From contig JAGRAO010000006.1 of NCBI GenBank assembly GCA_020434565.1, forward strand, positions 1 to 36,622: a stretch of 36,622 nt of DNA, given 5' to 3'. This document shows, piece after piece, positions 14,936-20,278 of this stretch. The position numbers were made by a program, and so were the translations under genes. The notes under the pieces were generated by a model that ran no database searches, had not been told where the DNA came from, and worked only from the letters and a program-made list of their open reading frames with translations. Positions within the stretch are counted from its first letter, which is position 1, and each line of letters begins with the position of its first letter. Source of the DNA: Bdellovibrionales bacterium. Its GTDB lineage: Bacteria; Bdellovibrionota_C; UBA2361; RFPC01.

Positions 14936-14941
14936 GGAATT

Positions 14942-15031
14942 GCGGTCGGGCGCGCGAGAAAGAAAGTGAACCCGGTCAGGCCTGGAAGGGAGCAGCCGTA
15001 AGCTTCTCCTTTCTGTGTTGTGCACGACCGC
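14942..15031 (+). ncRNA. ffs: Signal recognition particle RNA, small bacterial type (4.5S)
   Basis: This RNA binds Ffh and directs membrane proteins to the translocon. The conserved domain IV core is present at 14974-14997 (GGTCAGGCCTGG, then AAGGGAGCAGCC) with the GGAA tetraloop. The ends are set by a perfect terminal helix, GCGGTCG (14942-14948) with CGACCGC (15025-15031), giving about 90 nt, the small-type size. A TATAAT box sits just upstream. The order ffs-dnaX-ybaB-recR is conserved in many bacteria and supports the call. Exact 5' and 3' ends are inferred from pairing. Confidence 0.94.
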
Positions 15032-15098
15032 TTTGATACCTACTTTTCTCCCTGCTTTTCATCAGACTCTTCTTAAATATGGACGTGGTTATGATACA

Positions 15099-15122
15099 AA
15101 GTGCTTTTCAAGAAAGGCACTT
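15099..15122 (+). other. Stem-loop in the dnaX leader
   Basis: AAGTGCTTTT (15099-15108) pairs with GAAAGGCACTT-strand bases 15113-15122 to give ten pairs, one of them G-T, closed by the loop CAAG. It starts four bases after a TATGAT box (15090-15095), so it would lie at the very 5' end of a dnaX message starting there. No T-run follows, so it is not a terminator. A 5' stabilising or regulatory hairpin is possible. Confidence 0.45.
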
Positions 15123-15236
15123 GTAGGCAGAAGAGAAGAACACTCAAAAGAGTGAGCCAGTGAGGACAAAAAATGGCCTTACGGACTCGGAGATGGAAAT
15201 CGAATAGCGAAAAGGGGGAGGCCATCGAGCCAGGGA

Positions 15237-16907
15237 ATGTCATATCTCGTCTTTGCAAGAAAATATCGGCCTGACTCTTTCCAAGCGGTTTCCGGTCAGG
15301 ATCACGTTACGACAAGTCTCAGGAATGCCCTTTCTCTTAATCGTATTGGGCATGCGTACCTTTTTAGTGGACCGCGCGGAGTTGGCAAGACTTCGGTCGC
15401 GAGAATCTTTGCCAAGTGTCTCAATTGCAGCGAGGGGCCAACGCCGACTCCGTGTCTCGAGTGTACGAACTGTAAGGAGATCGCCTCAGGCGTGAGTCTT
15501 GCTGTAAGGGAAATCGATGGAGCTTCTCACAATAGCGTTGATAATGTTCGAGAGCTTATTGACTCATTCCGTTCACTCCCACCACCAGGTACAAAATATA
15601 AGGTCTACATCATCGATGAAGTTCATATGTTGAGCTTGTCGGCCTTTAACGCTCTTCTGAAAAGCCTGGAAGAGCCCCCTCCGCATACCGTGTTCATTCT
15701 CGCCACAACGGAACTCCATAAGATCCCAGAAACGGTGCTCTCTCGTTGTCAGAGGTTTGATTTCCGTGCGCTTCCTTCCATGAAAGTCGAGGAGCGACTG
15801 ATGGAGATCGCTCAGGCTGAGGGATTTTCAATCGATTTTGATGCTTTGCGGTTGATAGCTCGGCTTGCAGAGGGCTCGATGAGAGACGCGCAGACCTTGC
15901 TTGATAGAGTTCACGCCTTTAGTGGAGGGAATATTTCCGGAGAAGTCGCTGCTGAAGCGCTCGGTACAGTCGACAGAAAAGTTCTTGTGGATCTTCTCTC
16001 TTCTGTTTTTCAGCGAGACATTGACCTTGCGTTAGCTTCAGTGGAGAAAGCATTCCAACGAGGGGCTGAAACGTCCCTCTTTATCCGTGAATTTATTGGC
16101 GTTTTGCGAGATTGTCTCTTTGTCGGAAGTGTGAAAGAAGATCGGCTCCTTGCAAACGGCATGAGCCAGGATGAGATACAAACCCTGCGTTCGCTTGTTG
16201 CAGGAGTGGACAGAGCTGATTTGACGGATATGTATCGAGTCGCGCTCCAATATGCAGACAGTGCTTTGCGGAGCTCTTTTGCTCGCTATAGCTTTGAGGC
16301 TCTCATCGTGCAGCTCTCTTCTCGTGAGCCGGTGAAAGAGTTGGGAGAACTGCTCTCGAAAGTAAAGCTCTTGCTTCAATCTCCACGGCGTGAACGGGGT
16401 GTTCCGTCAGCATCTGCAGCCCGCTCGGTGAGAAAAGACGCCGCCCCTTTGAATCCGAGGTCGGAACCCGAGCAGTCAGTGTCGGATGTTACGATCGAGC
16501 TAGGTAAGTGGGATACGTTTGTTCAATTTGTTGCGACTGAATTCTCTCCGGTGCTCGGTGAGCACTTGAGAAGAGTAGGAGTAGCGAGATTTGGACCGGG
16601 CTCTCTGACTCTTTCGGGTCCAAAGTTTCACCTCGACTCGATCGAATCGCAAGAAGGGCGCTCGAAGCTTGTGGAAGCTCTGGAAAGGTTCTTTAAAGTA
16701 CAGGAGTGGGAGATAACGTTCGTGCCTCAGGCTGATAAGGATTCTGAGGTCGTCAGTCTTCACTCTGAAACTCAGAGAAAAAGACGTGAACAGAAAGTGG
16801 CCAAGAGAGAGGAGGTCCTGTCTCATCCTCAGGTTCGAGCAATTCGTGAAGCATTCCCAGGGACGTCTGTCGAATCCATTCGAACGACGAGTGAACAGGG
16901 AGAATAG
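15237..16907 (+). CDS. dnaX: DNA polymerase III gamma/tau subunit
   Basis: DnaX is the motor of the clamp loader that places the beta clamp on DNA. The 556-residue product begins MSYLVFARKYRPDSF, typical of the family. Walker A is GPRGVGKT (residues 45-52), followed by the four-Cys zinc site (CLNC, then CLECTNC), Walker B IIDEVHMLS and the SRC sensor motif at LSRCQRFDF. Domain III ends near residue 370, and a linker plus a C-terminal domain of tau type follow. It is longer than E. coli gamma (431) and shorter than tau (643). I saw no typical slippery A-run for programmed frameshifting. ybaB starts 15 bp downstream. Confidence 0.97.
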   Translation: MSYLVFARKYRPDSFQAVSGQDHVTTSLRNALSLNRIGHAYLFSGPRGVGKTSVARIFAKCLNCSEGPTPTPCLECTNCKEIASGVSLAVREIDGASHNSVDNVRELIDSFRSLPPPGTKYKVYIIDEVHMLSLSAFNALLKSLEEPPPHTVFILATTELHKIPETVLSRCQRFDFRALPSMKVEERLMEIAQAEGFSIDFDALRLIARLAEGSMRDAQTLLDRVHAFSGGNISGEVAAEALGTVDRKVLVDLLSSVFQRDIDLALASVEKAFQRGAETSLFIREFIGVLRDCLFVGSVKEDRLLANGMSQDEIQTLRSLVAGVDRADLTDMYRVALQYADSALRSSFARYSFEALIVQLSSREPVKELGELLSKVKLLLQSPRRERGVPSASAARSVRKDAAPLNPRSEPEQSVSDVTIELGKWDTFVQFVATEFSPVLGEHLRRVGVARFGPGSLTLSGPKFHLDSIESQEGRSKLVEALERFFKVQEWEITFVPQADKDSEVVSLHSETQRKRREQKVAKREEVLSHPQVRAIREAFPGTSVESIRTTSEQGE

Positions 16908-16922
16908 GTAAGGAGAATAGGT

Positions 16923-17258
16923 ATGGCAAAGGGATTTAACGGCTTTCCTGGCAACATGCAGGAAATGATGAAGCAAGCTCAGAAGATGCAGGAGAATCTT
17001 CTGAAAGTTCAAGAAGAGGCCCAGGGTCTCACTGCCGAAGGTTCTTCAGGAGGAGGCATGGTTACCGTTGTTGCGAATGGAGCGAATCAGATCGTGAGCA
17101 TGAAGATTGAGAAGGAGGTCGTCGATCCGTCTGATATTGAAATGCTCCAGGACCTGATAGTAGCCGCATCGAACGAAGCTCTTAAGAGTGCTCAAGAGCA
17201 GGTAAAGAAAAAGATGGCATCTGTAACTGGAGGTCTGAATATTCCAGGGCTCTCGTAG
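16923..17258 (+). CDS. ybaB: YbaB/EbfC nucleoid-associated protein
   Basis: A 111-residue small dimeric DNA-binding protein. The N-terminal helix ([20 protein letters not shown]) and the central strand region ([20 protein letters not shown]) are diagnostic of the YbaB/EbfC family, which binds DNA as a tweezer-like dimer. The ATG at 16923 follows AAGGAGAA. It sits between dnaX and recR with 15-bp and 34-bp gaps, the classical operon order. Confidence 0.97.
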
Positions 17259-17292
17259 CGTTTGCAACGAGATGTTTTTCAGGTTGAGCTGA

Positions 17293-17904
17293 ATGATTAG
17301 TTTTCCCCCCTCTTTTCAAAAATTAATTCGAGAATTGAATCGCCTCCCTTCGATTGGCGAAAAATCAGCTGTTCGTTTGGCATACCATTTAATCCAAGAA
17401 GAAAAAGGTTTGGCTGATGCACTTGCTTCAGCACTAGTTGAGGCCAAGAAGCAAGTTGGGCTGTGTTCTCAGTGCTATTTTTTTGCAGAGGGAGAGAGCT
17501 GCTCGATCTGCCAGAACAGTTCTCGTGATAGGTCAGTTATCTGTGTCGTCGAAAAACCGATGGACATGGCAGCAATAGAAAGAGTGGGAGAGTTTCGAGG
17601 ATTGTATCATGTGCTCCACGGACTTTGGGCTCCGTTGAAGGGAATGGGGCCAGAGAGCATGAAACTCCAGGAGCTTATATCTCGAGTAAAAAATGAACAG
17701 GTGAGTGAAGTGATCCTGGCTACCGGCTCAACAGTTGAAGGTGATGCGACCGCCCTCTACGTTGCCCGAGTTTTAGAAGAGTTTGGTGTTCGAACGACTC
17801 GCTTAGCGCAAGGTATGCCGAAAGGCGGTGAGCTGGAGTACGCTGACGAAGTGACCCTTTCGCGAGCGTTTAGCGGTCGAAATCCTCTTTCGCAGCCCCA
17901 GTAG
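17293..17904 (+). CDS. recR: Recombination protein RecR
   Basis: RecR works with RecO and RecF to load RecA at gaps. The 203-residue product has the N-terminal helix-hairpin-helix (LIRELNRLPSIGEKSAVRLA), the four-Cys zinc finger (CSQC, then CSIC) and a Toprim domain (VICVVEKPMDMAAIE and VILATGSTVEGDATALY), ending with the usual C-terminal region (LAQGMPKGGELEYADEVTLS). Length is standard. It is the last gene of the dnaX operon; the next gene begins 162 bp downstream. Confidence 0.97.
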   Translation: MISFPPSFQKLIRELNRLPSIGEKSAVRLAYHLIQEEKGLADALASALVEAKKQVGLCSQCYFFAEGESCSICQNSSRDRSVICVVEKPMDMAAIERVGEFRGLYHVLHGLWAPLKGMGPESMKLQELISRVKNEQVSEVILATGSTVEGDATALYVARVLEEFGVRTTRLAQGMPKGGELEYADEVTLSRAFSGRNPLSQPQ

Positions 17905-19795: not shown

Positions 19796-19868
19796 TCCCC
19801 GGTAGCTCAGTTGGTAGAGCAGCTGACTGTTAATCAGCTTGTCACTGGTTCGAGTCCAGTCCGGGGAG
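19796..19868 (+). tRNA. tRNA-Asn (anticodon GTT)
   Basis: The cloverleaf is complete: acceptor TCCCCGG (19796-19802) with CCGGGGA (19861-19867), D-arm GCTC/GAGC, anticodon stem GCTGA/TCAGC with loop CTGTTAA (anticodon GTT at 19829-19831), T-arm ACTGG-TTCGAGT-CCAGT, and discriminator G. The CCA end is not encoded; a T-run follows directly. Pieces of its 3' half recur downstream. Confidence 0.97.
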
Positions 19869-19900
19869 TTTTTTCCTCCTTTTCAGTCGTCCAAAATTCC
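19862..19900 (+). repeat. 39-bp direct repeat, copy 1 (tRNA end plus downstream)
   Basis: The last seven bases of tRNA-Asn (CGGGGAG) and the following 32 bases are repeated exactly at 20141-20179, 279 bp away. Similarity continues with mismatches for about 17 bp more (to about 19917 and 20196). The T-run inside it could also act in ending the tRNA transcript. Confidence 0.93.
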
Positions 19901-19914
19901 CCGGTAATTATTGG

Positions 19915-19929
19915 TGCAGCAAAGCTGCA
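19915..19929. other. Small hairpin TGCAGC-AAA-GCTGCA
   Basis: A perfect six-pair stem with an AAA loop lies between the tRNA and the inverted tRNA fragment. No T-run follows. It belongs to the structured stretch described for 19869-20278. Confidence 0.6.
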
Positions 19930-19934
19930 CATGT

Positions 19935-19953
19935 CCGGACTGGACTCGAACCA
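19935..19953 (-). repeat. Inverted copy of 19 bases of the tRNA-Asn T-arm and acceptor
   Basis: These 19 bases are the exact reverse complement of 19846-19864 in tRNA-Asn (from TGG of the T-stem to CCGG of the acceptor). Its first 11 bases also pair with 19995-20005. A transcript running through both could fold the tRNA 3' half against this copy. Confidence 0.93.
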
Positions 19954-19994
19954 TGGAAAGGATGCTGCGAGTCCACGGGCGGCGCAGCCGACCC

Positions 19995-20012
19995 GTCCAG
20001 TCCGGGGAGCCA
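19995..20012 (+). repeat. Forward copy of the tRNA-Asn 3' end, with CCA
   Basis: Fifteen bases (19995-20009) are identical to 19854-19868 of tRNA-Asn, and they are followed by CCA (20010-20012) and a T-run. The intact tRNA gene does not encode CCA, so this copy is not a plain duplication of it. Confidence 0.85.
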
Positions 20013-20140
20013 TTTTTTTCCATTCGGCATTCGAGCCCAGGGGCTGCCGCCCCTCTCGCCCTAGTCGGGCGTTCACCCTGCTTCTTGAAATATTGGTAGT
20101 TCTAAAGGAAATACCAGCAGGGTTCTAAACTTGTCCGCTA

Positions 20141-20179
20141 CGGGGAGTTTTTTCCTCCTTTTCAGTCGTCCAAAATTCC
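20141..20179 (+). repeat. 39-bp direct repeat, copy 2
   Basis: This is an exact match to 19862-19900. The bases before it (TTGTCCGCTA) no longer match the tRNA well, so only the last seven tRNA bases remain. The two copies bracket a 279-bp unit. Confidence 0.93.
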
Positions 20180-20278
20180 TTGGTTATTGTTTGTGCGGCC
20201 TGCGCGCTATCGGATAAAGAAACAGTACTGGGAGCAAAAGGGATTCTCGCGTCTCGGAATTTTCATACGGTGATGGCT

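Follow-up and report, generated by a model that had tools for sequence, protein, structure and literature searches.

The window, a stretch of 36,622 nt of DNA from a Bdellovibrionales bacterium, contains an intact tRNA-Asn(GTT) gene followed by three successive units that are built in part from forward and inverted pieces of the 3' end of that tRNA. Unit 1 is intact, unit 2 is decayed, and unit 3 is a remnant. Elsewhere in the window (14941-17904), a small bacterial SRP RNA followed by dnaX, ybaB, and recR forms an ordinary cluster. The components of the tRNA-Asn locus are listed below:

19796-19868, + strand: intact tRNA-Asn(GTT), without an encoded CCA (ARAGORN; Rfam tRNA, 71.5 bits)
19854-19868, + strand: tRNA 3' end that is copied (GTCCAGTCCGGGGAG), starting just past the T-loop GTTCGA
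19869-20009, + strand: unit 1, intact, 141 nt, placed between the tRNA and its probable old trailer by comparison with genomes G004 and G005
19869-19934, + strand: start of unit 1, with a T-run and the hairpin GTGCAGCAAAGCTGCAC (19914-19930); an 87% similar start occurs again at 20148
19935-19953, - strand: inverted copy of the 3' strand of the tRNA T-arm/acceptor, 19 nt, exact
19953-19967, + strand: loop ATGGAAAGGATGCTG (at other loci ..AACAATACTG..)
19968-19975, + strand: short forward T-loop piece CGAGTCCA, which pairs with the inverted copy
19976-19995, + strand: second hairpin, CGGGCGGCGCAGCCGACCCG
19995-20009, + strand: forward copy of the tRNA 3' end, 15 nt, exact, followed by CCA
20010-20147, + strand: unit 2, decayed, beginning with the ancestral tRNA trailer CCATTTTTTT and a 65-nt module
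20133-20147, + strand: degenerate forward copy (GTCCGCTACGGGGAG, 12/15)
20148-20199, + strand: unit 3 remnant, corresponding to the start of a unit like unit 1

A preliminary description of this DNA had reported a mosaic of forward and inverted tRNA-tail pieces behind tRNA-Asn, and the 19-nt inverted and 15-nt forward copies are indeed exact. The hairpins it claimed are present at 19914-19930 and 19976-19995. Its 39-bp direct repeat is also present, but the repetition is longer than was stated: the 39 bp are the core of a 67-nt repeat, 87% identical, between 19854-19920 and 20133-20199. A separate 9-nt copy of the tRNA 5' end (TCCCCGGTA) lies within unit 1 at 19898-19906 and could pair near 20143, in the degenerate forward copy.

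A 279-nt stretch of this locus folds far more stably than shuffled sequences (z = -3.6), as does unit 1 alone (z = -4.0). The predicted fold of unit 1 is a three-way junction: the inverted copy pairs with the forward copy in an outer helix, and the two further branches are an inner arm and the second hairpin. Among 49 distinct units the mean fold z is -3.4, with z below -2 in 38, and 26 of the 49 have an outer helix of at least 5 pairs together with two or more inner hairpins.

The displaced trailer of tRNA-Asn

The preliminary description had suggested looking for presence and absence among relatives, and two sites without unit 1 were found. In both G004 and G005 the trailer (CCATTTTT..., or more fully CCATTT...CCATTCGGC) lies directly behind tRNA-Asn; in the window it lies behind the forward copy, and is there 84.7% identical to the trailer of G005 over 137 nt and 93.8% identical to that of G004 over 64 nt. 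Because the displaced trailer sits right behind tRNA-Asn in these two genomes, unit 1 is most simply read as an insertion between the gene and its trailer. The CCA that follows the forward copy would thus be the former encoded CCA of the gene, pushed back by the unit. This CCA had earlier been taken as a hint that a different tRNA gene or a mature tRNA was the source; the hint was wrong in detail, as most relatives encode CCA after tRNA-Asn.

Not all loci have this arrangement of trailers. At 24 of 56 loci the same trailer stands behind both the tRNA and the forward copy, as a plain tandem duplication would give. At the remaining loci, unit 1 of the window included, the two trailers differ, as insertion gives. 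When the forward copies of tRNA-proximal and distal units were compared, no clear advantage of the proximal copy was seen: its preservation was better in 5 cases, equal in 9, and worse in 2.

Units behind other stable RNA genes

The arrangement downstream of tRNA-Asn recurs at other tRNA genes. In the same genome, tRNA-Cys, tRNA-Leu(CAA), and tRNA-Tyr are followed by the same arrangement, each copying its own end, and tRNA-Arg(CCT) is followed by a forward copy. Counts were taken over the retrievable tRNAs (not a census) of G000, of G001 and G002 from the same family, and of G007 from the same order; an inverted copy was scored when at least 12 nt of a tRNA's own tail recurred in inverted orientation no more than 300 nt downstream. 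Such a copy follows 45 of 108 tRNA genes, compared with 4/108 in the upstream controls and 9/5700 in random windows (Fisher p = 6e-12). The proportions for individual genomes are 4/14 (G000, in which just 16 tRNAs are visible), 15/30 (G001), 16/34 (G002), and 10/30 (G007); more than half of the tRNAs in these four genomes are without a unit. The local tRNA is the best match among isotypes for 39 of the 45 inverted copies. The search of the genome and its relatives proposed in the preliminary description thus found many copies near other tRNAs; their downstream position and their match to the local tRNA place the mosaic beyond chance.

The 61 units that were parsed follow one design: an inverted T-arm, a loop (for example TGAAACAATACTG or TGCCCCGCAGGGAAAATACTG), a forward piece of short length, a hairpin whose sequence varies, and a forward end (mostly 10-20 nt at loci other than that of the window). 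Units have a single orientation and are often in tandem, and most arrays have 1-3 units per locus. The tRNA-Asn ends of 29 relatives occur in 13 versions, and the copies track the local version (GTCCGTCCC in G037 and G039, GTCCAGCCC in G011, GTCCGGCCC in G007); because these versions differ by few bases, the margin for a local match is small in single loci. Other parts of the units are common to different tRNAs. The 65-nt module (window 20010-20078), CCGCTCGGCGCTC..GCCCAGGGG..CCCCTCTCGCCC..GGGCGTTCACCCC, holds two hairpins that vary in sequence; in several families it is found behind Asn, Met, Ile, Lys, Leu, Gly, Cys, Glu, and Val tRNAs, and it opens many tRNA tails (e.g., loci L019, L028, L061, L133, and L140). 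Behind a tRNA-Ala of G024 (L142), part of the module forms a 41-bp tandem array. Near-identical units, with spacers in common, lie behind different Ser tRNAs of G001.

Units are unevenly distributed among relatives, all of which are represented by fragmented assemblies, with one genome per species. Within the same family, units are nearly lacking in two genomes of a single genus (2/24 tRNAs in G003 and 1/40 in G004), and G005, of that genus, has some. Similar loops are also seen elsewhere in the class, in G023 and G032, which belong to other families; a search of 46 genomes across the phylum with the exact loop pattern recovers part of the units and is not a census. Several tRNA tails carry sequences of other kinds. 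At three loci of G003 (L189, L238, and L243), tandem copies of another palindromic repeat (TTTCCCTTTGGGGAGCGTTTCGGGCGC..GCACGCAGCGG) lie behind tRNA genes, so that several repeat families may be drawn to tRNA 3' ends. Units of family f11 and of G032 (L145, L144, and L154) have two GGATGCA direct repeats and a terminal ACTCCACCCCA, and resemble minimal attachment sites; some of these units are kilobases from any tRNA. The tails of tRNA-Asp and tRNA-Gly(GCC) in G000 (L047 and L048) have 77 identical bases (ACCGAACACATAGGTAACA..), perhaps the end of an insertion sequence, and similar sequence is also present behind tRNA-Trp/Thr in G001. At one contig end in G000 (C173, L003) a unit occurs without its tRNA, and arrays may therefore break assemblies and hide tRNA genes.

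The genes concerned include stable RNAs other than tRNAs. Inverted copies follow the first terminator of the 5S rRNA genes of G000, G002, and G007 (loci L289, L288, and L290). In G000 and G002, the order is first terminator, inverted copy of the 5S end, hairpins, forward copy, and second terminator; the inverted copy of G007 is 18 nt long. The tmRNA of G007 is followed by a 10-nt forward copy, and no copy of its tail was found for the SRP RNA of the window. The use of 5S genes would point away from a recombinase that recognizes T-arm DNA and toward some agent linked to the 3' ends of stable RNAs.

Known repeats and candidate mobilising enzymes

The closest likeness is to the tRNA-linked repeats (TLRs) of Escherichia coli, which include RtT/rttR behind tyrV (Egan and Landy 1978; Rudd 1999, as cited in PMC8144298). 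The first description of TLRs dates from 1978, and no function was known for them before three that lie behind 5S genes were studied (PMC8144298). The TLR within the tyrT-tyrV transcript is termed RtT, and an early starvation phenotype was retracted (PMC8144298). The three TLRs behind 5S genes (RrA/RrB/RrF) are transcribed and bind Hfq and CsrA (PMC8144298). That account offers no explanation for the source of the copied gene end, and the word "inverted" is absent from it. E. coli BIMEs have been described as similar to rtT (PMC2965389).

In E. coli, 50 tRNAs were taken as chosen loci. In rttR, an inverted GGGGAAGGAT with a forward copy of 19 nt occurs three times. The inverted and forward copies measure 13 and 18 nt in units behind tRNA-Lys, and 8 and 19 nt in those behind tRNA-Arg; the inverted copy behind tRNA-Tyr is 10 nt long. 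The rrnB 5S unit has an 18-nt forward copy, without a clear inverted one. A query of tRNA-Tyr plus RtT was covered to at least 80% at one place in 4695 of 5426 E. coli genomes.

In both systems, units lie directly downstream of a tRNA or 5S gene, contain hairpins, and end in the 3' end of the upstream gene (15 nt here and 18-19 bp in E. coli, being shorter on average in the present units). Copies per locus number 1-5 in E. coli and 1-3 in most arrays here, and the 5S units of G000 and G002 lie between two terminators, as in E. coli rrnB. In contrast to TLRs, the present units have a different conserved core, with no sequence similarity, and longer inverted copies; they affect far more tRNA types, in a distant phylum. 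The Rfam RtT model (RF00391) has no match at the gathering threshold or up to E = 5. The window array is like TLRs in architecture, and by model match it is not a member of Rfam RtT. A known RNA family was rejected as the identity of the units, since no Rfam family other than tRNA and SRP RNA reached its gathering score.

Two other systems are similar in part. Integron cassette arrays (attC) likewise consist of small one-directional units with a foldable inverted repeat beside a fixed site; however, the present units are short, without evident genes or an adjacent integrase, and lie at an RNA gene (for attC boxes the units were viewed by eye alone). REP/BIME sequences with their RAYT transposases are also short, dispersed, palindromic, and non-coding, whereas the present units carry copies of the local RNA gene.

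No unit was found within the flanks of ten tyrosine recombinase (PF00589) loci, in contrast to an integron cassette array, which has an integrase gene beside it. Nine Y1 transposase (Y1_Tnp) matches had no unit motif nearby; RAYT-driven REPs were rejected, as Y1 transposase genes are present and unlinked to the units. The inverted copy resembles a primer-binding site, but a tRNA-primed retroelement was rejected because G001, G007, and G011, all of which bear units, have no match to reverse transcriptase (PF00078). A viral origin was likewise rejected, as the loop pattern has no match in viral contigs.

Origin of the units

The preliminary description had offered three readings: scars of integrated elements, a palindromic element that multiplies by copying the ends of tRNAs, and a structured RNA made with the tRNA. 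The second reading is the best fit to units that are numerous, lie behind tRNAs, have sequence common to different tRNAs, and carry a copy of the local tRNA. The favored interpretation, to which we assign a probability of about 0.6, is that the units are dispensable, multiplying non-coding cassettes targeted to the 3' ends of stable RNA genes, and that the window holds a TLR/RtT-like array of them. The position and orientation of the units, their local copies, their shared backbone, and their presence or absence among relatives are observed. The units would either insert at the 3' end of a stable RNA gene or arise from it by duplication, and the gene would be kept intact because the unit restores its end, either carrying or copying it. 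Their number would grow through tandem duplication and through exchange between genes whose 3' ends are the same. In a read-through transcript, a unit could form a three-way junction, with the tRNA-end helix as its closing stem. Counting against this interpretation, no unit adjoins any of the ten tyrosine recombinases or nine Y1 transposase matches, tRNA-proximal forward copies show no clear advantage in preservation over distal ones, and the repeated trailers at 24 of 56 loci would also follow from simple tandem duplication.

The most serious competitor, though an unlikely one, is that the units are functional trailer RNAs under selection, which might control termination, 3' processing, or tRNA folding, or might act as small RNAs, a role claimed for RrA/RrB/RrF in E. 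coli. The consistent fold of the 49 units is in keeping with such a role, as are the transcription and the Hfq and CsrA binding of the E. coli 5S units (PMC8144298) and the position of the G000 and G002 5S units between two terminators, as in E. coli. Yet over half of the tRNAs are free of units, G003 and G004 are nearly free of them, and TLRs had no known function, the first claim for one having been retracted (PMC8144298). A neutral by-product of replication is less probable still; inverted copies would then arise where the template is switched at the T-arm hairpin, and tandem arrays by slippage from one short repeat to another. T-arms are natural palindromes, and at many loci the trailer and inverted copy are duplicated on either side of the core; however, random switching would not give the conservation of non-tRNA parts (..AACAATACTGC.., TGCCCCGCAGGGA, and the 65-nt module) between tRNAs and families, and the near absence of units in G003 and G004 also counts against it.

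Least probable is the other origin raised in the preliminary description, in which the units are scars or minimal att sites of tyrosine-integrase elements that entered at tRNA 3' ends. Forward copies do start within the T-loop/T-stem, a usual crossover region, and run to the tRNA 3' end, and the f11 units have direct repeats such as GGATGCA. Against this, the units are gene-free and have no integrase beside them, and a single tyrosine recombinase was found in G007, in which a third of the tRNAs have units. Duplications of att sites do not include inverted copies, and 5S genes are used as well as tRNA genes. An integrase scar was rejected as the main reading, given the absence of nearby integrases and the units at 5S genes.

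The cassette interpretation may extend beyond this phylum. Tentatively, selfish non-coding cassettes that, on joining any stable RNA gene, copy its 3' end in both orientations could be widespread in at least two distant phyla, with the E. coli TLRs as one branch. The present arrays place a TLR-like design with a clear inverted arm in an unrelated lineage, where in some genera it follows roughly four in ten tRNA genes, and 5S genes as well. Units are nearly gone in other genera, and the lineage thus offers many independent copies, young insertions, and empty sites in which end copying can be studied. A repeated tRNA 3' end does not by itself imply that a phage or island has integrated, and arrays of this kind may break assemblies at tRNA genes.
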